From Liolophura sinensis (taxonomy: Eukaryota; Mollusca; Polyplacophora; Chitonida; Chitonidae): a stretch of 64,000 bases of DNA. Positions within the stretch are counted from its first letter, which is position 1, and each line of letters opens with the position of its first letter. Position numbers and translations under genes: made by a program. Where the stretch lies: the NCBI RefSeq assembly GCF_032854445.1, contig NC_088304.1, positions 10,613,704 through 10,677,703 on the forward strand, written 5' to 3'. Below the pieces are notes generated by a model. It did no database searches, was not told where the DNA came from, and was given only the letters and a program-made list of their open reading frames with translations. This document shows, piece by piece, positions 2,447 through 64,000 of the stretch.

Positions 2447-5400
2447 CTAATGGAAAACATGAAGCACGAGAAATACTTATGATATTCAATCTTATATATA
2501 AAATAGTTAAAAATTATTGGATGATCTTTTTTCCTGAATTTCGTCCTTACAGTTTAATGCATTTCAAAAAACCACGTTGAATGACGAATAATCACTGATG
2601 AGTATTGAAACTGGACTTGGGCGTAAAGAATCGCTAGATGAAGAATTGCTTACTAATGTTAAGACATGGACATAACATAAGCATTTTAATACGTTATTGG
2701 TATGTCATCAACCTGCGGATGGTTGTGGGTTTCTGCCGGGCTTTGTCCAGTTTCCACCCACCATAATGCTGACCACCGTCGTATAAGTGAAATATTCTTG
2801 AGTACGGCGTAAAACACAAATGAGATAAATAAATAAATAAATAATACATTATTCCCTTAGTATCTCTTCAATGAATAACTTCTTTATCTCTTTACGAGAT
2901 GACGGAAGCTATTGATTTACAAAAAATAAATATGAAATTCTAAGGTTGGCGCAGAATTTACAAATTTCAACAGTCATGAGTTACTTTAAATCGCAAATAT
3001 GTAAATCCTATGAGACAAAGCAAGTTGTATTTTCAATCCATATTTTCCAGGCAAGAAATTGATAGAAAACAGGAAGTCGTTCCGTTTTGCATCTTGCCGT
3101 TCGGTGTGATTCTTGTAAAAAAAGTAGATGAATCGTGTAATGTGTACATGTATCTCAGGTGGAAATGGCGATATTCAAAAGGAAAAACATTTTTCATCGT
3201 TAAACCATAGAAATGAATGATTGTGAAGTTGTTTTAAAGCATTAAAGACACATACTGTTACAAATATTCCAGGTAAGATGGATTCAAATGTATATTGTAT
3301 ATTAAGTCGTCAGGAGGTAGGGAACTTTGATAATGTCCCTGATAATTTAAAATAACACCATGTAAAAATGGGTTATTTTTCTGTCCAAAACCGGCCTTTT
3401 GATTTTTTTAATCTGCATGACACACCTTTACAAAACCATATTGATAATGCATATCGTCAATGACGTGACAGAAACTTTTTTCTAAAAATGGTATTTAAAA
3501 TTAGACGAAAACACTTCACATGACTTTTATTCGGAACTGAACATAATCGATATATGACGTCACTAGCAACTGATATATGACGCCCCTGGCGATTGACATT
3601 ATCAATATGGTCCGTAAAGCCCACCATATAATTAAAACATTTGACTGTATTTAACTCGGTGATAAATATATATATATATAAATATATTTTACAGATACAG
3701 TTTCCAAAGGTCTTTGTACTGATTTGACTTTTTCAGTCCTTAAAGTGTGGAAAAAGCATTTATTGTCGAACTTAAGTAAGCCTACAATTGAAAGCAATCT
3801 GTAGAAATAATTTACCAAACTTACCACAAAGATTATCAACGCAGTTATCTGGACAATACTTGCAGGAAGGACCTTCTACATATGGACGTGCTGAACTTTG
3901 CCGTCTGTTTGAAAGAAGATACGCCGATTTCAATGCAAAAGTGACTTATAACTTCTAGCTGGTTTACATGACACGTAATTATAACGTTTTGACTTGTTAT
4001 TTCACACTGACATTTGGCTATAAGTACACCACCGAATGAATGAATAAGTTTGTTTAGCTTGCCAGACTATACTGAATCATAAACATACTTTAAGACTGTT
4101 GAATTTATTTATTTGATTGGAGTTTTACGCCGAATATTTTATTTATTCAACGGCAGGTAGCATTATAGTAGGAGGAAATCGGAGGAGCCCGGGGAGAAAC
4201 CCACGACCACCTGCAGGTTACTGAAGGGCCTCCGCACGTACGGCCATAGAGCTCGGAATCCAGCATGAGCTAGACTTGAACTCACACCGATCGCGTTAGT
4301 GAGAGCCTCCCGGATCATTATGCTCCACTAGCACACTAACCACCTTGCCACGGAGACCCCATTTCTTAAAAAAGATACTCCAATTTCCTACATTAAAAAT
4401 AACTTCTACATGGTTTACAACAGACGTAATTATAAGGGTTTGACTTGTTATAAACTGCCGTATGAATGAATAAGTTTATTTAGCTTGGAGGACTATAATG
4501 CAACATATTTAAACGGTTGTGGTAGGTATGTGTACATATTCATAAAACTGTAAAAGTGAGCCGGTTCAAGTTCATTTTTGGACCTCATCGTTGAAGGACT
4601 TGGACGTCCTCGTTTATATCGTGTGGATCGTATGCCGCAAACCATTTCTAATTAAACTTTCAAACCTCTTCGCAATGTTTTAATGGTGCTTGGTACTGGA
4701 AGATGCATTTTTTCACATTTATATTAGTTTCCAGGGTGTAAAAATAAGTTCTAACGTTGTGTAGCAAATTTTAACTTTTATGACGTCACTATTCAAGGAC
4801 TTACTGATTGTCCTGGCGCGAGTCCTTCTCTCGGCCAGCGACAACTGTTGTTTGGATACCATTAGTCCTTTAGTATTCTATTACTGTATTATAGCATAAA
4901 ACAGTGTCATATTCCACATAATATCGTGTTAGTCTAATAGAATATTTAGGTTGAAATAACACAATATATATGTTATATTTAGCAGAAAAATCTGCTGCAA
5001 TAGCAGAATACATTCTAGCTTCACTCAGACAACAGACTTTCTGTGACAATTAACAAATTAACTTTTTGAGTGTACAAGTCATTAGTCTCTTTGGGCGTCA
5101 GTAGTCAAGAATATAAGACAACATATAATAAAGAAGACAACAGCACAGAGAGTAAGACCAGAGATATTATTATACTGCTGGTTTTAAGGTTAAAGCAATT
5201 AGTTAAAAACAAGCTCGTTAAATACAATCTCCCGACTTCGAGGCGGCTCAACGTTCTAACCATTAGGCCATCGAAGTGGTATTGCTTTATTGGTGGATAG
5301 CTTTATCGAGAGGTGTGTATACGCCAGAGGAGCTATATTGTCTGCGATGAATATATACTCACCGTGGCTCCTTTCGCAGTCAAAAAAATCAAACCGACAT

Positions 5401-7560
5401 TTTTTGTTTCTGTCGTGAATCTATCGTTAACACCATGCACGATTTAAAAAGTATCGTGATGCCATTATGGGTACATCATGATGTGGTATACACTACACGA
5501 TATATGGTGCTTGCGAAAACAACAATGCTTCAATATGACATCGTTGTTCACGATACCGTATCGTAGGTTTAGTGTACACACCCTTAAGTTATCTGTGCCT
5601 TGGGATAACAAGGGCCGTTTTGTATTGTTACGCATGATTGTGCACGTCTTGGACAGGATCAGCACTAAAGCGTGTGTAAGTTTTCTTACTGTGGCATATA
5701 ATTGCAGATGTAATACTCTCTGGGTTTTGTGTTCCTGCACTTAGCGTAGCCACATCCAATCATCTGAGACGCCGCGCCAATCTCCTGAAAAAAAAACATA
5801 AACAAAACTTTGTGATATAACAATAAATGAAAAATAAATGATAACTGAAAAATTGAATGAATGAATGGTTTGGGTTAAGTCGGCAATATTTCAGGCAAAC
5901 CGAGGCAAAAGCTGAAAAATATACTTTGAGTTGAAAAATTGTATTTAGAGGAATGTTAAAATTTAGACTACATTTTGAATTTTCTTTGAAAACTAAAAAT
6001 ATATCTTATTGGCATGGTGTGGGCAATCATACATCAATCATCGAAAACTTCAACTTGTATGATCACCATAGCGTGATCAATGGCAAATCATCACGCGTAA
6101 CCGGTGACACCATTGTCAATGAAAATGGATTTTATTTTTGTTTTTTTAATGCCATATTCAAGATTTTTTCCACTGACGATGATGATGATTTTTATGGGTG
6201 GAGGAAAACGGCAGAAGTGAACCATCTACGTTTGGGAATTTAATAGAGCTTTCTCACATGTCACGAACGGATATACATATCATATTAGTCTATGGAAAGT
6301 AGCCTTTATCTAACACATGTAAGCAAGACATAAGACCTTACGTGGTACAGCGAAGCAAGACATAAGACCTTACGTGGTACAGCGAAGCAAGACATAAGAC
6401 CTTACATGGTACAGCTAAGCAAGATGTACACAAGACAGCTAAGCAAGACATAAAGCCTTACATGGCACAGTTAAGCAAGATGACACAACACCTTAAATCG
6501 CACAGCTAGGCCAAGTGACATCATAAGACCTTACATGACACAGCTAAGCAGGATGACACAAGACCTTACATGACACAGCTAAGCAAGACATAAGACCTTA
6601 CATGGTACAGCTAAGCAAGATGACACAAGACCTTACTTGACACAGTTAAGCAAGATGACACAAGACCTTACATGACACAGCTAAACAAGACATAAGACCT
6701 TACATGGTACAGCTAAGCAAGATGACACAAGACCTTACTTGACACAGTTAAGTAAGATGACACAAGACCTTACATGACACAGCTAAGGAAGACATAAAGC
6801 CTTACATGGCACAGCTAAGCAAGATGACACAACACCTTAAATCGCACAGCTAGGCCAGGTGACATCATAAGACCTTACATGACACAGCTAAGCAGGATGA
6901 CACAAGACCTTACTTAACACAGTTAAGCAAGATGACACAAGATCTTACATGACACAGCTAAGCAAGTACACCTTAAACTTTACATGACGCAGCTTACCAA
7001 GAGGATATAAGACCTTAAATCGCACAGCTAGGCCAGGTGACATCATCAGGCCTTACATGACACAGCTAAGCAGGATGATACAAGACCTTACGTGATACAG
7101 CTAAGAAGATGATATGAAAGCTTACATGGTACACCTACATATAAGCAAGATGAATTAGGTTAAAAAGCGTAATGTTAATTGCAATTTATTTATTAAGCAC
7201 TTAGATTGAAACAGTAAGAGATGGACCGGTTCCTGGAACTTTCTCACCCAGTTTGTAAAACTCTTTTTCTCTGTCCCATGCCCAGAAGATAGTTTTCCAT
7301 CCTCTGCCATCAAAGCCTGCATTCTGACCGACTGGATAATAATACGCTGGAAAACAATGAAAACGGTGAAAACGATGATTAGTGAATGAAACAAGGATTG
7401 TCAATTCAACTGACACCTATTGTGTTCATTTAGACCTGATATAACGGCTCGGCATCCAGCAAAGTCTGCTTCGTCAAGAACAGTTCAATTAAGAGATATT
7501 TTGTGTTCTGCCCTGTTTAAATGGAGGAATTATTCAACATTATTATCGTTGTCGTCATCA

Positions 7561-7591
<31 letters not shown>

Positions 7592-10500
7592 CGTCATCAT
7601 CATCATCATTATTTACTGTTATTTCAAGTAAGCTCTTTCTGTTTGCTTATTTGCCTGACTTTTTATGTATAAATTGCAACTCTTACAAGGAATGTGTCGA
7701 TACAATTTCGCTTCTTCGTTGTTTCCATAAGTACACTGTCTGGCCCACTTCTCAGCTCCTATGGCAAGTTTGTCATCCCAGTACTGGAAAATAGCATGCT
7801 TCATGTACAATTGTGCAATCATGTACAATAGCATGTACAATTGTGGCATATAAGTAGTAACAGCTTAGAAGTTTGTCATCCCAGTACTGGAAAATAGCAT
7901 GCTTTATGTACAATTGTGGCATATAAGTAGTAACAGCTTAGAAGTTTGTCATCCCAGTACTGGAAAATAGCATGCTCTATGTACAATTGTGGCATATAAA
8001 TAGTAACAGCTTAGAAGTTTGTCATTATAGTACTGGAAAATAGCATGCTTCATGTACAATTGTGGCATATAAATAGTAACGGCTTAGAAGTTTGTCATCC
8101 CAGTACTGGAAAATAGCATGCTTCATGTACAATTGTGTCATATAAATAGTAACGGCTTAGAAGTTTGTCATCCCAGTACTGGAAATAGCATGCTTTATGT
8201 ACAATTGTGGCATATAGATAGTAACAGCTTAGAAGTTTGTCATTCCAGTACTGGAAAATAGCATGCTCTATGTACAATTGTGGCATATAAATAGTAACAG
8301 CTGAGAAGTTTGTCATCCCAGTGCTGGAAAATAGCATGCTTCATGTAAAATTGTGGCATATAAATAGTAACAGCTTAGAAGTTTGTCATTCCAGTACTGG
8401 AAAATAGCATGCTTTATGTACAATTGTGGCGTATAAATAGTAACAGCTTAGAAGTTTGTCATCCCAGAACTGGAAAATAGCATGCTTCATGTACAATTGT
8501 GGCATGTAAATAGTAACAGCTTAGAAGTTTGTCATCCCAGTACTGGAAAATAGCATGCTTTATGTACAATTGTGGCAGATAAATAGTAACAGCTTAGAAG
8601 TTTGTCATCCCAGTGCTGGAAAATAGCATACTTCATGCTCAGTTGTGGCATGTAAGTAATAACAGCTTAGAAGTTTGTCATCCCAGTACTGGAAAATAGC
8701 ATGCTTTATGTACAAATGTGGCATATAAGTAGTAACAGCTTAGAAGTTTGTCATCCCAGTGCTGGAAAATAGCATACTTCATGCTCAGTTGTGGCATATA
8801 AATAGTAACAGCTTAGAAGTTTGTCATCCCAGTACTGGAAAATAGCATGCTTCATGTACAATTGTGGCATGTAAATAGTAACAGCTTAGAATTTTGTCAT
8901 CCCAGTACTGGAAAATAGCATGCTTCATGTACAATGGTGGCAGATAAATAGTAACAGCTTAGAAGTTTGTCATCCCAGTGCTGGAAAATAGCATACTTCA
9001 TGCTCAGTTGTGGCATGTAAGTAATAACAGCTTAGAAGTTTGTCATCCCAGTACTGGAAAATAGCATACTTCATGTACAATTGTGGCATGTAAATAGTAA
9101 CAGCTTAGACGTTTGTCATCCCAGTACTGGAAAATAGCATGCTTTATGTACAATTGTGGCATATATGTAGTAACAGCTTAGAAGTTTGTCATCCCAATAC
9201 TGGAAAATTGCATGCTTTATGTACAATTGTGGCATATAAGTATTAACAGCTTAGAAGTTTTGTCATCCCAGTACTGGAAAATAGCATGCTTTATGTACAA
9301 TTGTGGCATATAAGTAGTAACAGCTTAGAATTTTGTCATCCCAGTACTGGAAAATAGCATACTTCATGTTCAGTTGTGGCATATAAATAGTAACAGCTTA
9401 GAAGTTTGTCATCCCAGTACTGGAAAATAGCATGCTTCATGTACAATTGTGGCATGTAAATAGTAACAGCTTAGAAGTCTGTCATCCCAGTACTGGAAAA
9501 TAGCATGCTTTATGTACAATTGTGGCAGATAAATAGTAACAGCTTAGAAGTTTGTCATCCCAGTGCTGGAAAATAGCATACTTCATGCTCAGTTGTGGCA
9601 TGTAAGTAATAACAGCTTAGAAGTTTGCCATCCCAGTACTGGAAAATAGCATGCTTTATGTACAATTGTGGCATATAAGTAGTAACAGCTTAGAATTTTG
9701 TCATCCCAGTACTGGAAAATAGCATACTTCATGCTCAGTTGTGGCATATAAATAGTAACAGCTTAGAAGTTTGTCATCCCAGTACTGGAAAATAGCATGC
9801 TTCATGTACAATTGTGGCATGTAAATAGTAACAGCTTAGAAGTTTGTCATCCCAGTACTGGAAAATAGCATGCTTTATGTACAATTGTGGCAGATAAATA
9901 GTAACAGCTTAGAAGTTTGTCATCCCAGTACTGGAAAATAGCATACTTCATGCTCAGTTGTGGCATATAAGTAATAACAGCTTAGAAGTTTGTCATCCCA
10001 GTACTGGAAAATAGCATGCTTTATGTACAATTGTGGCATATAAATAGTAACAGCTTAGAAGTTTGTCATCCCAGTACTGGAAAATAGCATGCTTTATGTA
10101 CAATTGTGGCATATAAGTAGTAACAGCTTAGAAGTTTGTCATCCCAGTACTGGAAAATAGCATGCTTTATGTACAATTGTGGCAGATAAATAGTAACAGC
10201 TTAGAAGTTTGTCATCCCAGTGCTGGAAAATAGCATACTTCATGCTCAGTTGTGGCATATAAGTAATAACAGCTTAGAAGTTTGTCATCCCAGTACTGGA
10301 AAATAGCATGCTTTATGTACAATTGTGGCATATAAATAGTAAATGTTTAGAAGTTTGTCACCCCAGTACTGGAAAATAACATACTTCATGCTCAGTTGTG
10401 GCATATATGTAGTAACAGCTTAGAAGGTCAGACCAAGTGCACAGCAATGAGATATAAGAGTGAAATGGTGTTAGTACACATTCATTTTTCATAATCTTGG

Positions 10501-13500
10501 GAAACCTGTCAAAACGAAAATTAAACAATAATATAATGTAATGAGTGAAAGAAACTAATTGCGGATGGGTAAATCGATTTTAATATAGCCATGACATGAA
10601 GTGTTTGTTTTAAAGAACGTTGCAGATTTGTCCAAGGAAAAGGATTACTGTCAAGTGTAGTTGTGAAATCACCTCTTGTTTTAACAAATATTATCTATAT
10701 ATTTAAAGTAACATAAATACCAATTACTTGTATGTATGTGTTTTTTGTAAACATCATTACAAGAAGTTGCATCTTTTGGCTATTAATAATAACAAGAAAA
10801 TCAAAGGTTTTTCTTATTCCATGGCAACAATAATTAATATCCGGGTATTTCCAGTACGATGAGCAGAATACATAATTACAAAAGTATGCTGAGTTACGTC
10901 ATCAGAATATTAATAATCGAACAAAAACTACAACAAATGAAACCTATAAAAGGCCACTGGCTTTTAAATCGTGTCCTTTGGCCTAGAAGTAACTTCCACG
11001 GCTTACAACCGAGCTGCCACCCGATGATAGGAGTTTCATTCCTACCATTCTTCTAGTGTGCACAGAAGAAAGTTGTCTTGTTTATTCTTTTCCTTGTTAT
11101 ATACAAGCTAAGTTTCAAAATAAATTTATTTAAGAAAAAGAACTCTCAAACACAAGAATAGTGGTGGATGAAAAACTCAATCATTGTGTGACCGTGCGGT
11201 AAAAATAGATCTTTCCCAACGACTACACCAAATATTTATAATTTGAGTGGTGTTTTATGCAGTACTTAAGATTATTTCACTTATACGACAGCGGCCAGCA
11301 TTATGGTGGGAGGAAACTGCATGGGCAAAGCCCAGGAGAAACCCACGACAAGCGTCATTTGCAAAACAAAATTTTTCCACAGAGATCACGCGCAGATACT
11401 GTCAGACCCTTGGCTTATGAGGTCGCGCGCTCAAATCCAGCTTTTGCATATTGCTCCGTCTGCGGATTTGTCAGCTACGAAATGAAGGTTGGTGGTTTTC
11501 TTTCGATTTCCTCCATCCATGAATCTGAATGACTGCCACAAGGAGAGTAAAACTGGAGCAGCGATGCGAGTGAGGTAGTTAGTAAATAGTCACACTTAAC
11601 CTGTAAAACCCCGTCTTTTGCCAGTTTACCTCGCTTAGGGTTTTATTCTATCTGTTCACGTAAATGCTTAAAAGGTAGCACCTTGCAAAGACACCTAACA
11701 CCATGTCTTCAGCAGAGTGAAACTGAAAAATGCAGTAATGGTGATGACAAGGTATCACACATCAGTGATCCAGAATTTAAACAATGTTGAACGTTTATTG
11801 TTATAGAGTCATATCTTCATTAGAACATGCTCACCATTTTCAGCATAAAAGCAGCTGTCGGGTTTACTTTCGATCTGGCCTGATTGTGTGCATCTAGGAT
11901 ATACTTCTTGTCTTCTTCGCTAACCCCAGCGCTGCCAACAATGTAATTTGGGCTGTCAGTAGCACAATAGGTGCTATTCTCCACCGCTTGAAATTCCGGC
12001 GTACACGTGTCCGACACCTGGATTCCAAATGCAAAAATTACGACTCTAAAATAATGGCTATAATTTTATCTGACAGGTGTTTTACGCATTACTCGAACAT
12101 TTCAATTATACGACAGTGACAAGCGTTGCGATGGGAGGAAACCGGGCAGAGCCCGGACGAAGTCAATGTTTATTCACCATTAACACATTTCATGCAAAAG
12201 TTAATTCTTGGTTTCATTTATTTTATTTGTTTTACATCTTAGTCAAGAATATTTCACTTGTAGGACAGCATTGCAATCGCACTGACGAGAGGTTCATTGT
12301 GCTGCGCTACCATGCTAACCAGTCCGTCAGGTATTTTAATACATACGTCACCGTTAAAGGAAAACAAAACACAAAAACTGCACACTTCCTGGAAGAGAGA
12401 AGGAAATGTAATAGGTAATGAATATTACTTTTTCAATTTTTCTTTTAGAAGGAAGGCATTTTTACAGGATGGGCATTAGGGACCATCATCAGTATAATAC
12501 ATAAGTAAGTTTGAAACATTTATGTCGATATATTTTCTAAATGAGGTTGTGTTACATGTGTAATAAATTTAGTTTACTGTAATTTAATACTTTCTTCTAT
12601 GAAATGCTTTAAACTACAATTTTAACCATATTTATATTTTTATATATTGTTGTGGTTGTTTTTGTGCCGTATTCAGGAAAATGAATAAATAAGTAAACTG
12701 GAATACATACTGAAATATACCAGTTAACACAGTCACCAAATTACCTCCCGATTGTTCAGGTTATTTTAACTTCCTCTCTCAATGATTTTTAACGGTTCTT
12801 CCACATCTTGTACGGCAATCACTGTCAAAGACAAACATTCCCCTGAAGTAAAGTACGTGTAATCAAAATGGTAATTCTAAGCTGACGATCCAATCATGGT
12901 TATCTTACTTAATGAAATGTTATTTTACTAAACATATTCATGATTGGATTGTTGTTTAACTCTACACTCTAAAACATTTCACTTGAGCAAGCAAGCGTAT
13001 GAGTGGATAAAGATGACAGCATCTAAAGTTCCTGAAGGTAAACTTTCGCCTATGAAAATGAGGCGTGCAAAACCTTGACAGGTAAATTAACAAGAGGTTG
13101 TATTTTACCGGTTACGTGTGATCATTGGTCTTACTCTCTATGTTGTATGTCTTAAATTAATTTGGTTGCCTCTGAATGCAAGCCTGGACGCTGGACAAGA
13201 CAGATTATACGTTATTTACCATACCTCTTGCGGCGCATGCGCCACTCCCTACGTTCGCTTTATATCACTTCCACCACTGGCAAATTTTGTACAGGAATAC
13301 TGGACAAGACCGAGGCCACTCGGACCACAGTGGAAGTGATGTTAGAAAACACAAAAACTCTGTCTGAACTTCTTTTTCTACTGATACTTTATACACATAC
13401 ATTCTCTGTATTTAAAATATGTATAACAATTTTAACCAACACCTGAAATAATTTTATTACTGAATAATAAATTTAGTTAAGTTCAAGGACACCAGTGGTG

Positions 13501-13747
13501 AAGCTAAGACTAAACAAGCCTTCGTGCGTCGCACAGGCTCCAAAGTTCTGGCTTGACTAGAGATGGCAGTGATTTAAACGAGAGCGGCCAGAGAGCGGTA
13601 TATGCGCTGTGAGGAGTATGGTTTATTCTCAATACAATAATGCAAGTATGTCCAGTGTCAGAATATATGTATATGACGCTTCTCACATCGGCCATGAGAT
13701 AACACCGCCAGGGTCAACGCCATTAGCCAACTCCACTGCATCTTCAT
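2348..13747 (-). CDS. CAP/SCP-domain plus EGF-like secreted protein (gene span, 3' end outside window)
   Basis: This is a hand-assembled minus-strand gene with exons 13687-13747 (candidate signal peptide), 11835-12017, 7687-7783, 7248-7346, 5690-5784, 3825-3904 and 2348-2446. Reading phase matches at the junctions 11835/7783, 7687/7346, 5690/3904 and 3825/2446. The order of motifs is that of the CAP superfamily (CRISP/antigen-5/PR-1): DAHNQAR (first CAP histidine), WDDKLA..A..WA..C, PVGQN, then GCGYAKC, YYICNY and a Cys-rich hinge, followed by an EGF-like module. CAP proteins are secreted, disulfide-rich and often bind sterols or ions; the role of this one is unknown. Two gaps remain: the short exon with the usual GHYTQ-type second histidine was not found between 5784 and 7248, and the signal exon ends in phase 1 while 11835-12017 begins in phase 0, so an intermediate exon is probably missing there too. 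Confidence 0.85.
2706..2852 (+). repeat. SINE-A 3' core and tail
   Basis: The copy has caacctgcggatggttgtgg, the cataatgctg core and an (AAAT)n tail at 2825-2845. The head is absent. Confidence 0.8.
3664..3690. repeat. (AT)n microsatellite
   Basis: The sequence shows alternating at/ta repeats within an intron of the CAP-EGF gene. Confidence 0.8.
3825..3904 (-). CDS. Cys-rich hinge exon after the CAP domain
   Basis: The exon has an acceptor (caaacag) upstream of 3904 and donor gtaagt at 3819-3824; it is 26 codons with a split codon at each end. It encodes RPYVEGPSCKYCPDNC and then a VDNLC segment, the post-CAP hinge seen in CAP proteins of invertebrates. It joins in phase to the preceding CAP exon and to the EGF exon. 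Confidence 0.82.
4104..4361 (-). repeat. SINE-A, near full length
   Basis: The tail is at the left and the head ends at gccacggagacc (about 4350-4361). A few bases of the core are missing around 4130. Confidence 0.82.
4880..5075. repeat. MITE-like element, degraded copy (CTCAAAAAATTAA family)
   Basis: The right end, cagaatacattctagc ... caacagactttctgtg ... aactttttgagtg, matches the right arm of the palindromic element at 59922-60174. The left arm is decayed. Confidence 0.55.
5228..5290 (-). repeat. tRNA-like head of a SINE or tRNA pseudogene
   Basis: On the minus strand tggcctaatggttagaacg resembles a tRNA D-arm/A box, within a T-loop-less remnant. A functional tRNA could not be folded from it. 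Confidence 0.4.
5690..5784 (-). CDS. CAP domain exon with CRISP-type signature YYICNY
   Basis: The exon has acceptor with a long poly-T tract (tttttttttcag) upstream of 5784 and donor gtaaga at 5684-5689. It starts in phase 0 and ends in phase 2. It encodes MIGCGYAKC and YYICNYMP, the last two conserved blocks of CAP domains with their paired cysteines. The block that normally precedes it (GHYTQ) is absent from the exon and was not found in the upstream intron. Confidence 0.88.
6319..7140. repeat. Minisatellite, ~33-37-bp unit
   Basis: Roughly two dozen imperfect copies of aagcaagacataagacctta / catggtacagct run through the CAP-gene intron between exons 7248 and 5784. Read on the minus strand, units contain cttag, then ctgtgtcat, then gtaagg, that is acceptor-like and donor-like strings nine bases apart. 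Confidence 0.9.
7248..7346 (-). CDS. CAP domain exon (VGQN / AWDREKEF)
   Basis: The exon has acceptor ttttccag upstream of 7346 and donor gtgaga at 7242-7247; it enters with two bases and leaves in phase 1. It encodes YYYPVGQNAGF, then a Trp-rich helix ending AWDREKEFYKL, matching the family pattern (V/E)-G-Q-N ... W ... W-x-x-E. An open frame runs past the donor to a stop, but it is not CAP-like. Confidence 0.85.
7549..7613. repeat. Trinucleotide (CGT/CAT)n microsatellite
   Basis: Repeated tcg/tca triplets lie in the CAP-gene intron. A plus-strand serine-run frame here is an artefact. Confidence 0.9.
7687..7783 (-). CDS. CAP domain exon (YWDDKLA / WARQC)
   Basis: The exon has acceptor attttccag at 7784-7792 and donor gtaaga at 7681-7686; it is 32 codons plus one base. 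It encodes YWDDKLAIGAEKWARQC followed by a polar stretch, the second helix and first structural Cys of CAP domains. Its first 17-18 bases, together with the acceptor, are repeated in every unit of the array that abuts it at 7766-10427, so the true acceptor is the outermost copy of a long row of look-alikes. Confidence 0.88.
7766..10427. repeat. 73-bp minisatellite (~36 copies) containing a splice acceptor and exon start
   Basis: The period was checked at 7868, 7941, 8014 and 8087 and is exactly 73 bp. On the minus strand each unit reads tattttccag, then tactgggatgacaaactt, then ctaagctgttac. The first two parts are the acceptor and opening codons of CAP exon 7687-7783. A variant unit with catacttcatgctcagttg recurs at 8627, 8773 and 8992, and again at 9577, 9723 and 9942. 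The same 146/219-bp spacing repeated 950 bp away shows a higher-order duplication of about 13 units. Confidence 0.95.
10428..11240. other. Intronic sequence without recognised features
   Basis: AT-rich unique-looking DNA between the 73-bp array and a SINE fragment, inside the first recognised CAP intron. Nothing further was seen. Confidence 0.4.
11240..11350 (-). repeat. SINE-A fragment
   Basis: An antisense core (ggtgttttatgcagtactta, gcggccagcattatggtggg) ends near acccacgac. Confidence 0.8.
11555..11795. repeat. Copy of palindromic MITE-like family (gtaaactgac / ggttttattct)
   Basis: Shares cagtttacctcgcttagggt, then ttattctatctgttcacgtaa and tcagtgatccagaattta with the copies at 25911-26480, 41430-41592 and 53766-54900. 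It ends 40 bases from the donor of CAP exon 11835-12017. Confidence 0.65.
11835..12017 (-). CDS. CAP domain exon, N-terminal part (DAHNQAR motif)
   Basis: The exon has an acceptor at 12018-12020 and a donor gtgagc at 11829-11834; it is 61 codons, phase 0 to 0. It encodes a linker with two Cys, then VSEEDKKYILDAHNQAR and VNPTAAFMLKM, the first helix of the CAP domain with the conserved His. It joins in phase to YWDDKLA in the next exon, which recreates the family motif M-x-W-D-x-x-L-A. The intron that follows contains the 73-bp array. Confidence 0.88.
12066..12165 (-). repeat. SINE-A fragment
   Basis: Antisense core fragment: ggtgttttacgcattactcg, then gatgggaggaaaccgggcag. Confidence 0.7.
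12480..13680. other. Presumed first intron of the CAP-EGF gene; no exon recognised
   Basis: Contains a partial MITE-like copy near 13030-13145 (ttaccggttacgtgtgatca). A missing coding exon of the CAP-EGF gene may lie here, since the phases of the flanking exons disagree, but none could be recognised. Confidence 0.4.
13687..13747 (-). CDS. Candidate signal-peptide exon of the CAP-EGF gene
   Basis: On the minus strand an ATG at 13747 opens MKMQWSWLMALTLAVLSHGR, a short charged start, a hydrophobic core and a small/polar end typical of a cleavable signal peptide. It is followed by a consensus-like donor (gtgaga, 13681-13686) in phase 1. Position and strand suit the first coding exon of the CAP-EGF gene. 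The phase does not fit the next recognised exon directly, so the link is inferred and needs an unseen exon. Confidence 0.5.
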
Positions 13748-20373: not shown

Positions 20374-23300
20374 GTAAGAATCTCCTCCACGAATCAGACG
20401 TTCATATATCAACCGTCAATTATCATGAACGTTCCAGTTTAACAATCTTATAACGTATGACGTGCGGGAATTGTTCGGCTGCCGTATATGACAGCCTACA
20501 AACACTTCAGAACAGATTTGCTAAAGCTGTTTACATTTTGAAAATGTTTTTTTTTATGAACGTTGGAAAGTTTTAAAATCTGTTTTACAATTTTACCAGT
20601 ATGTTGTGCAAGGGATATTGTATCTCCGTGACCGAGTTATAAGCATGACTGCGCCGCATTTTTCATCAGTGAGCTCTTAACAATGCAATCGCCTCGAGCT
20701 GAAATCCACCTCTTTCTAATGGCAGATCGTGCATGGAGAGGTCAGACAGGCAACTCCCGACCTCTAGCCCCCCACCCCATCGCCGCACGAGTTGCATACC
20801 ACTTTCATCCCCTCATAATTCTGGCCGCCAATCTACAAGTGAAATACTCTTGAGTAAGGCGTAAAACTTTTACAACTATTTGTTCATTTCAAAAGAATAT
20901 TGCCAAACTACCTGTTGGATGGTCGTGTTGTCATGGCTGTGTTTGTGGGTAATCTAAATTGAATCGAAATACTTTAACAGGTTAAAAAAAGTGGGTTAGA
21001 GTTTTGTCCGTTTAGTCGAATAATTAGCAAATATCTCATTCAACTGTGTCCAGACACCCTGCTTTGCTAAGAGTAGTAGGCCATGTGTATGGTGTAATCT
21101 CCCCCCAAACCGTTTACATGGCAGTGTCCAGGATTGAAAAGCTCATACAGCCTTGAAGAATTCGTTGTAGGATAGGCAGTGGAGATAAGAAACGCGAAAC
21201 TGAGTTTCCAGATTTGACTTGTCAATGCAACAACAGCAAGAAATAAAGTCAAAACTAACCAGCTGCGAGGATTGCTTTCCGGCGAATTATTTTCTCGTAG
21301 AACCCGCACAACGTCATTTACCGTAAAATGGTGATTTACGAAATTGCAAGTTTAAAAGTACTGGAACAAAAAAGTGCTTAAATTTTAGCAACTGGATGTG
21401 GTAAATCGTCCTACCAATTATGTAACCCTTTTCATAAATTTTTTTATGGGAAGGTCTCTCAGCAACCGGTCGTGGGTTTCCTCGGGGCTCTGATTGCTTT
21501 CCTCTTACCATAATGCTGGCAACGGTCGTAAAATTAAAAATATTCTTGAGTACAGCGTAGAAATAAAAATAATAAATAAATGTCATGCTTACTGGATAAT
21601 TTGTGTGACATGAAATTATCTGCCGCATTACTATTTAAACATTTCACGTTTGGTATAAAAATACATCTCTGAAGTTACTAAACATAGGTTTTTTTTATCA
21701 TAATACACCGCGTTTTCGAACTGTAACAGAAAGGTGTTTATGAACGGAACACTAATTTTTACCGAGGGGGAAAAATCGTCGCGGACTTCTTGCACTATGG
21801 ACCAATGCATTACGCTTTGAACCTACTGCCACATAAAACACACAAGCGTAATTTTCTTTTATCTCGTAAAAGTGTGTTATTTCTTTGTTCGAACTCTTCA
21901 TGTGGATTTGTGCGAAGGCTTTTAGCCTAAGGGGAGGTTTCAAAATGTCTTCTGGTTTTTCAAACGGTTTCTCCTGAAATATGGCTGACCATATTCTTCA
22001 CATAAACGACCCCTTTCTATGTGCAATTCAGTCTTATTTAACCGCTACGTTATCCCGTGATGCACTGCCCAGGGATAAGATATGGTTTGTCTTTCTCACA
22101 GCAATATACAATTCTTTTTGTGTTTTTTTGTGCTTTCAGTTTTATTTATTTATTTGATTGATTTTTTACGCCGTACTCAAGAATACTTCCCTTATAGGGC
22201 GGCGACCAGAATTGTGGTAGAAGGAAACCGGGGTAAAGTCATGACAATCCACAGGTTGCTGGAAGACCTTCCCACAATCCGGGGAGGAAGTCATTACGAT
22301 TCAGTTTTATTTAAACTGACGGCCAAACGAAACTTTACCATAGATTTAATGGCCCAAATTTGTAATAACACAAAACAACGGATGGTGGAAGTGTGATATA
22401 TTCAAAACAAAAAATATGTTTAGGTCATCCACGTCCAAAGTAAAGAAATGTACGGCAGCCCATATAGCCATCACGTGCTCAACTGGGGGTTGGGGTAATA
22501 AAAATCGACATTTCAGTTTGATGACCAATCGGGTAAGTAAGGAAAAAGTTGTTCAGTTTGATAATGTCGCCTCATCAATATGTGGCCACCCCTTGCTTCA
22601 ATGCATGCAAAAATTCTCCGAGGCATAGACAAAGTCAGTCGTCTGATGAGGTCACGTGGGATACGATGCCATTCTTCGTCAAGAGCCTGTGTCATTACTT
22701 GCCGGTTAGCTGGATGTTGTGCTCGTTGTCTTACGCGGCGATCCAGGGTGTCCCAGAGGTGCTCTATGGGAGACATGTCTGGGGAACGTGCAGGCCATAG
22801 TAAGGCGTTGACGTCTTCGGTGTCAAGGTAATTCTGCACGACTCGAGCTGTGTGGACGTTGTCTGGTAAAGGACACCACATGGATGCTGGCGAAGGAAGG
22901 GCAGATCAATCGGACGTAAGATGCCATCCAAGTAACGCCGAACTGTTAAGTTCCTATCGATGATGACCAGTGGTGTCCGATCCTGTCCACAAATCCCTCC
23001 CCATAACATCACTCCCCCACCACCATACGGTACCACCTCCTGAACGCAAGCTAAGGCCGTCTTCCATCAGCTCTGAACAGACAGAAGCGGCTTTCATCTG
23101 TGAAGACGATCCGTTGCCAATCACGTCGCAGCCAACGTCGTACAATTAGGACCCATCTCAACCTCTGACTACGATGTTGGGCCGTCAATAGCTGTCTTCT
23201 GAATGGGCGATGAGCTCGGATTCCGTTATCTAGGAGTCTCCTTGACACTATCTGCCGACTGAGCCTATGACCTAACGCATTCATCGATGATGACGTCACA

Positions 23301-26300
23301 GTCAGGAAGCGATTTCGCAGATGCAAGGCACGCAAGTACCGGTCCTACCTGGGCGTGCTTACCCTAGGTCTGCCTGTTCTTCTCTCTGCCTGTAACGCTG
23401 CATCAGATTTGTAACGATTACACGAGAACAGCCAAAAGTTCTTGCAATGTTAGCATGAGTGGCTGTTATAATCACCATGCCCAGGGCCCTCTGGCGTTGT
23501 TCAGGAGTCAGTCGTGACACCACTACGGTGTTTTTTAAGTACTGTGCAAGTCTTACTGGCTTTAACGTTTTATACACTTTTTGACCTCGTGGTTTCGCCC
23601 GTCCACTGGTCACGTGGTTTTAGAACTTTTCTCTTTCTGTTGCAACGGATTGCTATGGGCTTACATATAGCTTTTTCCATATGGGAATATGCTTGGACTC
23701 TTACTTTTACTAGGTTAAGCAGACCGAAAACGCTTGTTAAATTTCAATTTATGAGTGATAAAGTTTCTTTTGGCCGTCAGTTTATTTATTTATTTAATTG
23801 TTAATTAGCCCCATGCTGTAGAAATTTTCACTGATGTGACGCCCAGTTTTTATGTGTGGAGAAAACCGGAGCAAACCAACTACCAAAACTACAAAATCCT
23901 GCTTTAATTAACGCTGCCGCTGAAGCAGCGAGAGCTGGATTCGAACAAACGATCTTTGGTGAACAGCCAGCTGAACACAGGGAGGCAGCGCTGTTATAGT
24001 CGGAGCCAGCTTGGGCTCCTTTGTTTGTTCAAAGACAAGTTTTCTTGCTGTAAAATTAACATCCACATTGAAAGTTGCGGGTTTACTTCAATCTGCCATC
24101 TGCATGTTTTAAATTCGAGTAAGCGGGTTCAAATCCAGCTTTCGCTGGTTTGCTGCGGCTTTAAATCAGGGGGCTTGATAGGTACCTCCAGGGTTATAGT
24201 TAACTCCGAGCAATCTAGCTTATACTCTTCCGATAAACATATTTAAAAATATGCTCTTTCACCAAGAGGAAGGCCAGTCCTAAAGTACAACAACAACTTT
24301 TTCACTTAAACCTTATCATCACAGCTAAGGAATTCCACAGTATGCATTTAAAAACTAATGTAAAACGAGTCTATATATTTTCGATAGAGTTTGCCTTCGG
24401 CGGAGTATCAAGTTTTAGAAATTCCTTGTGTTAGGTCGATAGGCCTACTCATTGTACATGATTATACTATGCGTGCATATTGCATTATCATTACAGGTCG
24501 ATTAAAAGTTGCAAACTTGCACAACGTTTTCCTGGATTACTACAAGCGGTATGGTAAAATTGTCAAGGATACCGTTGCTGGACAAACAGTGATTCACATT
24601 TTCGATCCGGATTATGTGAAAGACTATTTCCAGCAAGAAGACAAACTGCCCGATGTGCCGCCATTGCTGGACGTCACTAAACAATACAGAAATGACCGGA
24701 AGCAGTCGCCTGGCCTTGGAAACTCGTGAGCTGACACTTCAGAGATTACACACAAAGATTGTAGGAAGTGGGATGGGGGGGGGGGGGGGGGGCGGAGGGG
24801 GATAGTAAGAATTGACAGGAATGTGGAAAGACATTTAAACAATTTGGCGAAATTTAAGTTGTCTACATGTTAAGGCCTGAAACAGATACTAGTACGTCCC
24901 TAAATTTGCGTTTATACGTTGCTATTTGTAACAGACTAACCTTCATAGTTCTCATCCGAACCGGCATTCTATTTTAGTCAAAAAGTATAAATTATAGCAC
25001 ATGAAGTCTTTGTCCTAATTTCAATCTAGTCGTATTCGACGAGTCGACACGGACAAGTTGCACAGAATAAATACCGTTAAAACTTCAGGCTAGTTGATGG
25101 AACCAGTTGGAATCTGAACAATGTATAGCGAGAGTCGACCGTTTTCATTATCAGGGTTTTCTTAGATTTCTAAAACATTGTTAATGTTTATTTGTTAAGA
25201 AAAGTACTCACCTGGAAGAGTAAAAAAAAATCCTATGAACTGAATATTGAGAAACCAATACGGCTACCCCTTATGCCTATACGTCTGCCGTAAGACCAAT
25301 ACGCCAGTCCTTGGGCCAAGACGGCTGGCCGCAGACCAACACAGTTGTCGATAGCCCCCTCAAGCCAGAATGGTACTGTCAAACCAAGGCAGCCCTCGGA
25401 CCGACACGGCTGCCCACAAACCAATATGTCATTTCTCAAGTCAATACGGCTGCCCTCGGTCCAGTGCGGCTGCTCTCATGACAAATAGGCTTCACTCAAA
25501 GTAATGCGAATATAAACAATACATTCATCGTACTTTAGTTGATGGTAAATACAAAAGAACTCATTTGCAGGTTCGCAACTTTGGCAGCAAAATAAATATG
25601 GTATGCTATGTTATCACAGTTTAAAGCAATTCTAAAGAGTTCTAATTCTAATTAACTGCCGCAAGTGATTGTCATGAGTGCTTCACAAATGCCTGTCTAA
25701 GGACACAGTGCTCAGATCTCTGGAGGTAGGGTTAAGAAACCATTTATTAGTATTCAGGACTCGAAGAAGAAAAAAAACACTAGTTTGTATACAGAGGCTA
25801 CGCAACAACAGGGCCTGTATCAGAAGATTCATTCATGTAGTGACCCCATGACGTCACCATTTTGGCTATGATGGCGGTCAACAGACTCGAGTGAGTCTGT
25901 CTGCCATGGTGCGAGGGGGATGTGTAATTTGCTGCATTTTAAGCATTTACATAAATAGTTAGAACAAATTCCTAACTAAGGTAAACTGACTACAGGCAGT
26001 ATATTACCAGTTACTTGTGACCATTTGTCAACTATCACAATGCTGTCATTGCGCTGGTTTTACTCTCTATGCTCTAATTTTTTTTATTATATTTAACACT
26101 TCTGATATACAGCGATTTTGCACATAAAGTTATGATTACTGGGGAATAAAATACAATTGAAGACGCACATCATAGTGAGTAAAACCCGAGCAGTGACGAC
26201 GATGTGATAGCTAGCTAACGGTTACACGTAACCGGTGAAATCAGGTCATTTGTCAGTTTACTTCATTTAGGGTTTTATTCTAACCGTTCTCGTAAATGCA

Positions 26301-29300: not shown

Positions 29301-32300
29301 AAGAGATTTTGCTTCGCGCTTTTGTTGTCACTATAATTGTATGATTATCTCGGGGCTCGTGATTACTAAGTTGGGCCCCTAGTTAACCGGCCAATCATTT
29401 GGCCGCTGACATCGCGATTTAGGCGAAACCACGTACCAAGTTGTAATCGGATTGACTAGGATTTTTTCCTGTTTCCTCTGTCTTTTAAAAAAAAGAAATA
29501 CTCTCGCCTGATCTCCTCAGGAGTTTTTCTCTTTTCCGTCGCTTAAAAAAAACTCCCACCGATCTCTTTTTCTGGGAGTTTTTCTTCTTGAGTACAGCGT
29601 AAAACACCAATCAAATATAAATAAATCGATCCATGCCCCCGTTCCTTTATGTTTGAACTATTATTTATAGCTGCATGGATCACGGCGTTTGACACCCATT
29701 TCGGATGCATTGCCAACAAAGATCACACGGAAGCCCAGGCCATAATTGACGCCAATGCTCTGATATTCCGTCTCTCCGTGGACATGAAGTTTTCCGTGCC
29801 TTGGTACAAGATCTTCCCCACCCCAAAGCGACGACGGATCTACGCGGCCGAGGACTACATATTAAGGTAAGTCAAGACGTCTATTCAAGCGTAAGTCGCC
29901 ATCATGTTGATGAAACATGATCGACACGTTACAGAAAGTTTTGAAATAGCGATGTCTATTCAGAGCAGAAGTACTGTATGTTGAAAAATAGTCTCTTCTT
30001 TCAGTCTTGTCCAAAAACAGTCTCTCCTCTTTCAGCATCGTCCAAAAACAGTCTCTGTTAGCATCGTCCAAAACAGTCTCTCCTCTTTCAGTATTATGCA
30101 AAAACAGTCTCTCCTCTGTTAGCATCGTCCAAAAACAGTCTATCCTCTATCTGCATTGTCTAGTAACAGTTTCTCGTCTTTCAGTATTGTCCAAAAACAC
30201 GTGGATCAAACTGTCGAGAAGATCAAAGTATTACAAGACAAAGGCGAATTATTGGACGGTCAATACAGCTTCTTGACGTACTTGTTGTCAAGGGAACAAC
30301 TGACGTATACAGACATCGTCATCCTCACGCTCTCACTTCCTTTTGATGGCGTCAGCACGGTACACAGTTATTTTATATTAAAGCATTCTACACAAAACAA
30401 AAGAGTTTTAATCTGAAGCGATTCTGTTTTCATGTATAAACAATGTGTAAAGTACCTTCATTTGATCAAGGGTATGAAAACTCTAGTGTTTTTTCTTTGT
30501 GAGAATAAATGATCGACTCTTCTCATGTGTGTAAGGTTGAATGACGTATCACATCGTATAAGAAGAGTTTTTTTTCTAATTCTGCACCCATCAGTTTTCA
30601 TATGAAAGCTAGGACATGTTCTCGTCTCACAGCTATTCCGGTTTTCTGTCACGTGATCTAAAAATGTCATTTCCTGTTTTCATTCTGACCATACAACTGG
30701 TGACGTCACATGTCCATATGCCTTGGCGTTTCACTTTGTTACTAAAATAATCCCATCATAACATGTCTATATGTTTTTAAGGTAAAAATAACAATGTATA
30801 TTTATATCACTAATTTTAATTTCGTGGGGTTATGTGGGTCTAAATTTCTGTGGTATGACTGTTTATTTTCAGAACGCAAGAATGCTTTACTTCAACATGT
30901 ACTGCATTGCCAAGAATCCAGACGTCCAGAAAAAACTGTACAATGAAATCGAGCAACATCTTCCAGGGGACGAACCTTTGACACCCGAGAAGCTCAGCAA
31001 ATTATCCTACCTCAAGGCTTGTGTGAAGGAAACTTTTAGGTATTGGTATGATTATGCAACTATCTTTGATTCAGAAGTGTTTGGTTGATGATTGACGAAA
31101 AATTTCAGATCAGTGTGACTGCAACTGAAAGTTAGACTGGAAATTGCCTGCCAAATGTTATAGCAACAACGATTTTTTAGCGATTCAAATATGACACAAA
31201 TAAGTATCCGAAGGTAGAAAAACAAGCTAAAAGTGGACCTCTCTTGGCGTTGCCATGTAGTGAACCAATAATGTGGAAATACCTGGGGCCTAAGCTGTGC
31301 GGACTAGTGTTCATTCCCACCTTTACTCATTTATTGCAAGAGAGCAATGGTCAAGTAAGACTGGAACCTCATTATAAATTTGGGCAGGTGAGAAGAGAGA
31401 TTTGGGTCTGTCGTTTTCGTCAACGGTTTGGTTCTTCGCCGTTGCAAAGCTTGTATTATATTCACCATAACGGTTTCTTCTCACCATAATGCTGGCCCTC
31501 ATCGTATAAGTGAAATATTCTTGAGTGCAGCGTAAAACACAAATCAAATAAATAAATAAATCAATAAATCAATAAATATTGATGTTAATGTAAGTTTCAG
31601 CTGGTTCAGATGTAGCTTTAAGTCAGGAGATTTGTCCGATACCTCTGGAGATACGGTGGTTTCATCTGCTATTCGGAAGGTTAATGTTAGCAATAAAGCA
31701 ATTTAAGAAACAAGTAAAAAACATTAAGTTTTTGTGTTCATTCTACACTTACGGGGCCTCCGTGGCCTACTTATTAGCGTTTTACCGTAGCACCATGACC
31801 CAGGAGCCTTTCACCGATGTGGTCGTCATGCCTTCAAGCCTTGCTCCTGGTGGCTTCCTATCCGGTTGTGTGTGGGAAGGTCTGTCAGCGGATGGTCGTG
31901 GTTTCCTCCAGGGCACTGCTCAGTTTCCCCCACTATACTCCTGGCCGCCGTATAAGTATAACTATTCGTGAGTACGACGTAAAACTCCAGTCAAAGAAAT
32001 AAAATAGTACTCTGTAATTATGAATTTGTTCTTGCAGGTTTTTTCCGATTGGGCTAGAGATTTCCCGGATTTTGAAGAAAGACATGGTTATCGGGGGCTA
32101 TCAGCTACCTGCCGGAGTAAGTGGCAGAATCTTAATTCCAAATAATAATTGTAAATAATAAACATAATGTATATGTGTGGTGAAAGACTATTGATCACAT
32201 CCCACCGTGTGTCGGAAGGTCTGTCCGCAACTTGTCGATTTTCGCGGGTTTCCCCCGGACTCTCCCCAATTTCCTCCCACCATAATGCTGGTCGCCGTGG

Positions 32301-39412: not shown

Positions 39413-39695
39413 CTACACCTGAGCTATCAACCTTGCGTCATTATGAAGTTTTAAATTTTCACTGAAGTCCACACCCACTTTGTGGAATCGATCTCTAGTG
39501 AGCAAAGCCTTTGAAAATATCGCGTGACCAACCTCGGTTTCAGCACTCCTCACAAATCGGTACCTCTGTAGAATAGACACGACCGCCATCTTGGCTTTCA
39601 AAAGAGCCAGTCTCATACCGACACAGTTCCTGGGGCCATGGCCAAAGGGCAGGTAGGCATAGGGGTGTCTTTTGGCCTTCTCCTCGGCAGAGAAT
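39413..39695 (-). CDS. CYP3-clan P450 exon 13 (heme loop and C-terminus)
   Basis: Completes Arg438, then [20 protein letters not shown] and the Cys462 loop, and ends at TGA 39413. The acceptor tatattcag is the last of a row of copies (19-bp array). Confidence 0.93.
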
Positions 39696-42600
39696 CTGAA
39701 TATATGGAGAGAAGCCGAAAATAAGAGGAAGAGCTGAACCTGAATATAAGGGGTGAATCTGAATGTAGGGGGTGAATCTGAATATAAGGAGTGAATGTGA
39801 ATATAAGGAGTGAATCTGAATATAAGGAGTGAATCTGAATATAAGGGGTCACTGCGCATAAAAGAAAATAAGAAAATTCATTGAATTTCCACTCCATGTT
39901 AGATATGCAGATCTTACGTATCGTGAAGCTTGTTTTCGAACTAGATTTGGGAGACGGCAAAATATTTGAAGCCGTTCATACACGGAACACAACGACCAGT
40001 GTTAATCATAGAATTTGTTAAATATGCCAAAATTATGCATGGATCAGGTTGGTGTGTACATTCTTTGTGTGATTTTACAAACAATACTTTACAAATCTTG
40101 ATTTTTTAATCAAGATCGAACATTACTTGGAGCAGTTATTGCACGGAAACTTAAGCAGAGCAGACGGACAGATGGACAAATGGAGGAAAAGCCAGACAGA
40201 CAAACAGTCCGACGGACAGATGTACATTAACGTCCCTCTTTTCGCTGAAGCCTGATCACACCGTTCACACATGAACACATGAAAACCGACTGCGTTTGTA
40301 TGCCATGGAAAAATAACAAGATCGTAACTGTACATTATTTCATCCAAAAGCAGCATGCATGGTCGTCGCAGCTGCTCGGGAACCTAAAACCAAAGTCTGC
40401 TCTACCCTGTTCTGTCTGCATATCTACCAGGGCATAATCCCGGCTCTGTCTGTTTCCCCCTAAACCAGTACGTACCTCTGAGGATTGAATTTTTCTGGGT
40501 CAGACCAGTACTTGGGGTTGTTGTGAATATAATTTACAGGAATCTGGATAGAGAGGCCTTTGGGAATCAGATGCCCTCCGATGACAATGTCGTCCTTAGT
40601 GTCACGAGCCAGTCTGGAGAATAAGAATATAATATTAGTTATAGGAAAAATTTTAATCTAGGACTTATTTATTTTCATCATGGGTGTTTGACGCTCTGCT
40701 CAAGGATTTTTAAAATCACATTATGGTGGCCAGGTTTTAAGAGATAAATAAATCTACGATAAAAGTTCCACGTCATTGGAATGGCTATTTCCTGTATTTC
40801 CTACAGCTAAGCTGGGGAGAATGAAACAGATCTCAGATCTCCAGCGTGTGCCCATAACAAACACCCAACATAAGCAAACGAGTGTTATAAATTGAAGATG
40901 TCTATTCCCATAATGCAAAGCGTAATTCAACATATGGACCTGAAATTTATTTCCATCCATGAAGATTCGATGGAAGGACTTAATTAAATTTCTTCAAATA
41001 AGCATCGCAAATCAACCCAGCCACGTCCTTACCACTTCTAGGGAAAATCGTTACCAGACAAAATCTGACAACAAACGTTGAAGGAGAAATTTAAAACCGG
41101 TAGGATCATTCTAATATAATTTTAGTATAAAATACAATACATTTCCTCAGATAAGATTTTCCATAAAACATACATGATGTGCATACAGATATAGGGCATA
41201 GTCTGCTTTTAGGCAGGTTAAAAATTCCCCACCTGTTAATCAAAACCCTCGAAAATTCCACGTGTGGTAACCTGAAACTTGAAACCTTGTCTACATGACC
41301 ATGTTCAAACATGACAGTTTCAAATATAAATGTCCTTTTATCAAAACCTTAAATTTTCATCCAAATACATGACTATACATAAATTCTTTAAAAGGTCGCC
41401 ATTTGCCTGTCTGATTAGCATTAAATCTCTATAATGACGATGACACAGAACGAAAAACCAGAGCAGCGACGACAATGTGCGGGCTGGCAAACAGTCACGT
41501 AACCGGTGAAATATGGCCTCTTGTCAGATACTCAGTTAGGGTTTTATTCTGACTGTTCATGTAAAAACATAAATACTAGCAACTTTGACATACCTCTGTC
41601 CAGCTGGGTAAATTCGGAGCGCTTCACTAATACACATGTCTAGATAAGGTAGACCCATTACATTTTCATAGTTAGGCTTATTCTGCAAGAAAGAGTACAA
41701 ATATGCCTTGTATATTTCATGCTAAGGTAAGAAACATAAAAATGATTATTTATATAGAAAAAATACAATGAGAGAGCCTTGCATGCTATGCAGCAGGTTC
41801 AGAGTAAAACTAGAAATATCTTATTTATTTATTTATTTATTTGATTGGCGTTTTACGCCGTACTCAAGAGTATTTCACTTATACGACGGCGGCCAGCATT
41901 ATAGTGGGAGGAAACCGGGCTGAGCTCGGGGAAAACCCACGTCCATCCGCAGGTGGCTGGCAGACCTTCCCACATACGGCTGGAGAGGAAGCCAGCATGA
42001 GCTGGACTTGAACTTACAGAAATTTAGAAACGTCTTGTGATATTGCAGCGTCATAAAAATAGAAATGTCATGCCATATAGCCGGGTCATAAAAAAGAAGA
42101 AATAACCTATCAGTTTGCAAGCCATAGAAAAAAAAAATAGAAATGTCTTCTCATATAGTAGGGTAATAAAAAATCTGTAAATGTCGTGATATTACAGGGT
42201 CAAAGGAAAAAAAACTACAAATGTCCTGTGATATTGCAAGGTCATAGGAAAACTAGACACGTCTTGTAATATTGCAGTGTAATAGGAAAAGTAGAAATAT
42301 CTTTACGTATTATTCAAAGCTGAAAGAAAACAATAGAAAGCAAAAGTTGTCTCAAAGAAGAAAATATCTTGATTTGTTGCAGCCACATGTAAAAAATAGA
42401 AACTAGAAATATACTGTCAAATTATACGCTCTGATAAAAACTAGAAACCTTCCCTACCTTCCCAACTTTGGTGTCAATCTCCTCAATAAGGGTCTCCTGG
42501 CATTCGGGATTCATCGCCAAACAGTAAGACAGCATACTTAACGTACCCGCTGTTGTTGCATATCCACCCAACATGAATACAAAACACTGAGCCTTGATTT

Positions 42601-63896: not shown

Positions 63897-64000
63897 CTGC
63901 AAAAGAATTTCTAAAATGTGAAAAGGAACAAATCATAAAGCTAACCATATCACAATAACCCTGTAGGTGCAAGTTGTAGATTTTACTGTATCTGACCTAA

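Follow-up and report, generated by a model that had tools for sequence, protein, structure and literature searches.

A row of decoy acceptors before a CAP-gene exon, and tandem arrays across other splice junctions, in the chiton Liolophura sinensis

How the right splice site is found among equals has been asked for a long time, mostly by means of artificial constructs with duplicated sites. A natural form of it arises in the 64,000 nucleotides of L. sinensis analysed here (NC_088304.1, positions 10,613,704 to 10,677,703; hereafter the window), where one intron of a CAP gene ends in many copied splice signals set in a row, so that the cell must pick one true site among look-alikes. We asked what this row is made of, how it could have arisen and been tolerated, and how often its like occurs elsewhere in the 609-Mb assembly (632 contigs), which was treated as that of a eukaryote with introns.

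The gene lies on the minus strand and its model was assembled via homology to a paralogue, L001, on contig C1. Exons 1-3, when joined, match PF00188 (E=3e-6, 28.5 bits; cut-off 21.1), which places the product in the CAP superfamily. The exons, in gene order, are as follows.

13687..13747, minus strand: first exon, signal-peptide-like (MKMQWSWLMALTLAVLSHGRC), placed by homology to L001 1292-1474
11835..12017, minus strand: exon 1 (VSDTC...FMLKM), with donor gtgagc
7687..7783, minus strand: exon 2 (YWDDKLAIGAEKWARQC...), with donor gtaaga from 7686; PF00188 on the joined exons
about 7248..7346, minus strand: exon 3 (YYYPVGQNAG...EFYKLG), with gtgaga as the likely donor, by reading
5690..5784, minus strand: exon 4 (EIGAASQMIGCGYAKC...CNYMP)
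3816..3906, minus strand: exon 5, cysteine-rich (RPYVEGPSCKYCPDNCVDNLCGKF), ends approximate

This model is incomplete, since a stretch of about 20 residues with an HYTQ motif, present in exon 3 of the paralogue, was not found in the window by comparison or by reading, and the phase of the first exon has no obvious fit to exon 1. The junction of interest is better anchored: exon 1 ends ..FMLKM/gtgagc (11835) and exon 2 starts YWDDKLA (7783), both backed by homology, and L001 has an intron at the same position and in the same phase (..MMKV/YWDDELA, gttttag/TACTGGGACGAT). The acceptor position given by the first-pass annotation for the exon at 7687-7783 is thereby supported. The counterpart intron of L001 measures 423 nt, whereas 4,051 nt separate exons 1 and 2 in the window, and no second acceptor copy was found within 500 nt upstream of the L001 acceptor. 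Because the L001 intron has no acceptor array, the simplest view is that the exon is older than the array. Across 93 codons of exons 1 and 2, dN/dS between the two genes is about 0.24 (0.317/1.30).

Two smaller repeats were seen in these genes. At the other end of the L001 intron homologous to the array-bearing one, four similar donor-region sequences (gtaagta..ctgccaacg, one of them with gtaaata) lie at 2566, 2598, 2648 and 2677 on the plus strand; this small donor array is absent from the output of Tandem Repeats Finder (TRF) at score 50. In the window, a 35-bp minisatellite with a higher-order period of about 102 bp occupies 6320-7137, between exons 3 and 4, and stops about 110 nt before the likely exon 3 donor.

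The row of copied acceptors fills the final 2.6 kb of the intron between exons 1 and 2, and comprises two parts.

7784..10426, minus strand: 73-bp minisatellite with 35 decoy 3' splice sites, then the true acceptor (TRF, motif scan)
7784..7886, minus strand: irregular exon-proximal unit of 103 nt, with the true acceptor AG at 7785-7784 (spacing list)

TRF, which had been proposed as the check on period and copy number, bore out both, returning 7832-10426 with a period of 73, 35.5 copies, 91% matches and a score of 4306; a head-to-tail unit within 10-100 bp makes this a minisatellite, as seen in one genome. In each unit, about 55 bp from the intron tail precede the first 18 bp of exon 2. A fuzzy scan counted 36 motifs of acceptor plus exon start, spaced 73 nt apart save for one interval of 74, one of 72 and the final 103. 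The first-pass count of about 36 copies thus agrees with the motif total, but only 35 are decoys, the last being the true site at 7784/7783. The likeness of the copies is close: over -10..+3, 26 of 35 decoys equal the true site exactly, and over the 28 nt from -10 to +18, 15 are identical to it and 33 differ at no more than two positions, which confirms that acceptor and exon start are shared. As AG is present in all 35, each unit bears a splice site in matching context, and the row of decoys upstream of the true acceptor exists as first described. The proposal that the array was seeded by the intron-exon boundary and grew into the intron likewise stands, on the evidence of 35 units of intron tail plus exon start and a paralogous intron free of them.

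The one alternative raised at the outset was an ordinary minisatellite resembling the exon by chance. Such a repeat, a satellite or mobile element unrelated to the exon beside it, could be entertained in a window with 42 TRF rows, where tandem repeats are plentiful; a query of two units nevertheless found at least 17 matches in the genome, every one inside the CAP array, and on this ground chance similarity is excluded. The 28-nt agreement across the boundary in 33 of 35 decoys, and the same anatomy built from unrelated units at other exons (below), also count against it, and we regard it as refuted.

Several named categories were compared with the array and set aside. Introner-type mobile introns are dispersed in copies over many genes, and the matches of this unit (at least 17) all lie within one array. 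Close tandem acceptors of the NAGNAG kind differ from decoys spaced 72-103 nt apart. The two bases after the decoy AG are TA in 28, CA in 6 and TT in 1 (n=35), which is not the pattern of recursive (ratchet) splice sites. The array does cross an exon-intron boundary, as in intron gain by tandem duplication, but the 18-nt copied exon piece holds no GT that could serve as the new donor. No clear higher-order repeat was evident, lag identities being only 0.914-0.935 across lags 1-12, with lag 5 the highest.

Could the true site be told from its copies by strength? Matrices were built from an exon sample of this genome, with 135 estimated acceptors and 136 estimated donors. They give the true acceptor 6.62 (26th percentile) and the decoys 5.0-7.84, with a mean of 6.70; 33 of the 35 decoys equal or exceed the true acceptor, and local strength on this matrix therefore cannot single it out. 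Among the 72 nt that follow a decoy, the best donor scores 1.62 in the median and 4.41 at most, and no donor-like GT in the whole array scores above 5.26 (21st percentile). The exon 2 donor, at 5.01 (18th percentile; median of estimated real donors 8.29), is itself weak and comparable to that highest-scoring GT, so that true site and decoys differ in where their best donor lies as much as in how strong it is. Every one of the 35 decoys, if used, would meet an in-frame stop before exon 2 ends, and the first-pass remark that the decoys shift the frame is supported. A 7-nt core, TTTCCAG, is intact in all 35 (column shuffle P 0.009); a run as long anywhere has a P of 0.29.

The explanation we consider probable is that a tandem duplication across the splice junction grew into a minisatellite and has been tolerated, the exon-side site being the one used. 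The duplicated segment would have run from a point in the intron to 18 bp into exon 2, with a short CTT match at its ends, thus copying the 3' splice site (I-ab-E to I-ab-ab-E); by eye, these three bases at the array start are common to the exon (AAACTT/GCC) and the intron flank (GACCTT/CTAAGC). Unequal exchange or slippage may then have carried the array to 36 copies, giving the order intron-(tail+exon start)x35-(tail)-complete exon. Provided that exon 1 is joined to the exon-side acceptor, the mRNA is as it was before the duplication, and the array would therefore be nearly neutral; it would be tolerated because the exon-side copy alone is joined to the complete exon. Most likely this last acceptor would be chosen because it is the sole one paired with a donor 97 nt downstream, as exon definition would have it, and the decoys, lacking a good donor nearby, would be passed over. 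A decoy used now and then would bring array sequence and a stop codon into the mRNA, and the product would presumably be removed. For donors the same logic would apply in mirror image, the mRNA being unchanged if the exon-side donor is used, and junction-crossing arrays should be nearly free wherever splice sites pair across the exon.

Two further acceptor arrays in the window, both at cytochrome P450 exons, have the same layout.

29984..30184, plus strand: second acceptor array, 31-bp unit gtctctcctctttcag/TATTGTCCAAAAACA, 6 decoys and the true site (TRF, reading)
30185..30359, plus strand: cytochrome P450 exon behind the second array, taken as P450 from its neighbours 30792-31085 and 33490-33810
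39696..39850, minus strand: third acceptor array, 19-bp unit ctccttatattcag/ATTCA, 7 decoys and the true site (TRF, reading)
39416..39695, minus strand: cytochrome P450 haem exon behind the third array (PF00067, E=4.7e-16), its 3' end set as the end of the open frame

AG is present in 5 of 6 decoys of the second array and in 5 of 7 of the third. The exon at 30185..30359 has no Pfam match of its own; in a P450 paralogue, L163, the exon begins, by eye, at the corresponding position and in the same phase, and upstream of it the acceptor is not repeated. The haem exon at 39695 and a surveyed paralogue, L057, appear to share the same intron (RFS exon start) with units of 19 and 32 bp, respectively, which suggests that arrays may have been born repeatedly and independently at that intron. 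Elsewhere in the window, on the minus strand, fragments at 22516-23344 resemble what we take to be a Tc1/mariner-type transposase, and an open stretch at 63444-63932, with no Pfam hit at 0.001, resembles what is presumably the end of an SH2B-type SH2 domain.

To place these cases, exons of five families were sampled by profile search: P450 (60 of 99 listed matches), kinase (40 of 138), ABC (13 of 19), CAP (5 of 10) and kinesin (33 of 132), the lists holding the best-scored candidates rather than every exon. Matches were dropped if they had in-frame stops or long open frames, as were overlapping kinesin stretches and some others, and arrays were accepted at a TRF score of at least 80 and a period of at least 12, together with reading of the sequence. 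A tandem array lies across a splice junction in 13 of the 151 sampled exons, at 4 acceptors and 9 donors, which amounts to 13/302 junctions (4.3%, 95% interval 2.5-7.2%); the window's three arrays lie outside this count. The unit lengths and copy numbers are as follows.

Acceptor arrays: L057 (32 bp x 10.3), L078 (37 x 8.8), L081 (80 x 7.1), L130 (64 x 9.8)
Donor arrays: L046 (28 x 2.0), L047 (57 x 6.1), L087 (67 x 7.7), L092 (65 x 5.3), L122 (48 x 13.6), L123 (33 x 19.5), L127 (125 x 4.0), L158 (30 x 2.4), L159 (63 x 10.5)

By family, the arrays fall in 3/60 P450, 4/40 kinase, 0/13 ABC, 2/5 CAP and 4/33 kinesin exons. The CAP family was surveyed because the window finding concerns a CAP gene; leaving this family out gives 11/146 exons. 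At the survey thresholds, none of 60 rows is an array wholly inside the coding match. Assignments were in part made by hand: L127, at first classed as intronic, was reassigned to the donor-crossing arrays, and in L046, L158 and L159 the automatic donor proved to be a decoy, the exon-side donor being taken by reading. Outside the count, L107 has a donor array at a neighbouring kinase exon, presumably Aurora-like, and L115/L160 an acceptor array at a neighbouring ABC-transporter exon, whose decoy exon piece has visibly drifted from the true exon, so that this array is not fresh. Together with the two P450 exons of the window, the 13 surveyed exons point to the same process at acceptors and donors elsewhere in this genome.

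Other candidates were not accepted. The array of L102 seemed at first to sit at the acceptor of the following exon, which L126 and L161, however, place far beyond it; in L157 and L134 the arrays stop near but short of the acceptor, and in L100 the array begins past the donor. L038 was excluded, its 31-bp array (1191-1291, gene orientation) running from the last P450 codons across the stop codon into the 3' region. Two duplications are sub-threshold: L015 (18 bp x 2 at an exon end, score 74), and L044 (19 bp x 2 near a P450 exon start, score 78), which was omitted as ambiguous; in the latter (897-935, gene orientation) the 19-bp duplication shifts the frame unless the second copy provides a new acceptor. 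L036 and L058, flagged by an automatic copy scan, are intronic arrays, and for L119, L120 and L071 inspection led to no claim of a junction array. Among the accepted cases, L122 and L123 are CAP genes about 6 kb apart on C13 with donor arrays of 48 and 33 bp, respectively, at the corresponding exon end.

If decoys are neutral, their splice dinucleotides should decay like the rest of the unit. Across 8 acceptor arrays with 91 decoys in all, 81 retain AG, against about 79 expected if it drifted like other columns, and acceptor decoys thus behave as neutrality predicts. In 8 of the 9 donor arrays (without L046), GT is kept in 46 of 63 decoys against 54.5 expected, with losses in 3/3 copies of L127 and 10/19 of L123; donor decoys may be mildly disfavoured, with some selection against them. 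No P value is attached to AG or GT retention because copies within one array are not independent. In the kinesin donor array L127 (925-1452, gene orientation), GT has become GG in all three decoys, a pattern that would fit homogenisation of the array to an inactive donor.

Whether junctions are favoured sites of array birth depends on the yardstick. The first counts the exon-side edge of each array, up to 60 nt inside the exon, against the intronic density (46 arrays in 191,626 flanking bases, not all read by hand as the junction cases were). By this measure 13 edges lie inside exons where 4.35 are expected (Poisson P 0.0006). The excess lies with donors (9 against 1.99, P 0.0002), acceptors being not significant (4 against 2.30, P 0.20), and the overall excess persists without CAP (11 against 4.26, P 0.0045), without L123 (P 0.002), and in the kinesin set, for which the prediction had been fixed beforehand (4 against 1.21, P 0.034). 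These values are to be read with paralogues that are not independent, four boundaries set by hand and a P450 donor flank of only 300 nt. The second yardstick is coverage: at a TRF score of at least 40 and a period of at least 7, tandem arrays cover 7,765/89,220 bases of the P450 stretches (8.7%) and 4,462/67,985 of the kinase stretches (6.6%), and with 4.3% of junctions covered, a junction is covered no oftener than an average base. The two yardsticks thus disagree, and the coverage result speaks against a hot spot and favours tolerance of randomly placed arrays. A bolder version, in which junctions are hot spots of array birth, thousands of genes carry authentic rows of decoys, strength alone cannot identify true sites and array length is a heritable, fast-changing dial on the productive share of mRNA, seems to us doubtful.

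Three other accounts of the CAP array deserve weighing beside toleration. The array might act as a row of poison acceptors, used often enough that its length tunes the productive share of mRNA. Decoys that match or outscore the true site in 33 of 35 cases, are transcribed before it and lead without exception to a stop would suit such a role, as would the retention of AG in 35/35 and of the 7-nt core; the decoys are not, however, followed by good donors, AG retention across the 8 acceptor arrays (81/91, about 79 expected) is only what other columns predict, and donor decoys are lost more than expected (46/63 kept, 54.5 expected). We therefore think this role unlikely. The missing HYTQ stretch and the ill-fitting phase of the first exon would also be in keeping with a decaying gene, in which the minisatellite has no effect on splicing, but six exons with open frames and splice signals, a dN/dS of about 0.24 across exons 1 and 2 and further arrays in kinase and kinesin exons make decay rather improbable.

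Least probable among these three is that the array is excised as a series of small introns, as in potato RdRp, with a donor from the copied exon piece. Duplication of this kind has been published for potato (PMC4974935), and of 4 units inspected in the kinase array L081, 3 contain a donor-like GT (ATGGTGTGT, score 8.2). The CAP exon piece, in the form that it has at the true exon, holds no GT in its 18 nt, donors behind the decoys are poor (median 1.62), and TA, CA or TT after the decoy AG (28, 6 and 1 of 35) does not yield AG/GT. Toleration of a grown duplication remains the reading we prefer, with four observations standing against it: donor-crossing arrays exceed the intronic edge density, which plain neutrality does not predict, donor decoys keep GT in 46/63 against 54.5 expected, the TTTCCAG core survives in 35/35, and the exon 2 donor is weak.

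The first-pass statement that no standard name is known for such an element needs softening, for there are precedents. Reed and Maniatis (1986, Cell 46:681; cited in PMC12480690) reportedly used duplicated splice sites in cis-competition assays; that work shares with ours the choice among identical sites differing in exon context and position, but its constructs were artificial and the present arrays are natural. The minisatellite of human IFI6 (6-16/G1P3) reportedly has a unit of 12 bp. It is reported to contain multiple splice donors (Nucleic Acids Res 1995, 23:1854; cited in PMC2572611) and, like the CAP array, is built on a splice site and supplies many; it differs in being a donor array of short unit whose sites are said to serve the transcript, while the chiton case concerns acceptors, predicted sites and several genes. 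In potato RdRp, an intron was gained by tandem duplication across an intron-exon boundary, with copying of the intron 3' end and exon 5' end, including the acceptor and polypyrimidine tract (PMC4974935); one extra copy arose there and a donor in the exon piece made the new intron, in contrast to 35 extra copies and no such donor here. Human duplicated genes have variable internal tandem repeats at exon-intron boundaries, with 27 intron modifications (PMC2812944). These too are minisatellites at such boundaries and alter splicing, but average about 4 units of 30 bp in recent primate paralogues, whereas the chiton arrays reach 36 copies and also occur at conserved kinase and kinesin exons. Earthworm metallothionein has minisatellites in intron 1, which the available text does not place at a splice site (PMC12783039). 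Earlier reports of long acceptor arrays, or of junction arrays at the percent level genome-wide, were not found in the open-licence literature; the kind is already known, and the copy number, the acceptor type and the frequency look new.

One genome thus offers natural tests of a problem otherwise posed with constructs, in the form of near-identical acceptors and donors that differ mainly in the complete exon and other splice site that follow. RNA reads across the arrays would help to tell whether sites are chosen first come, first served or by exon definition. Should the frequency extend past the families sampled here, errors of gene prediction and of short-read mapping are likely at many exons of such genomes.
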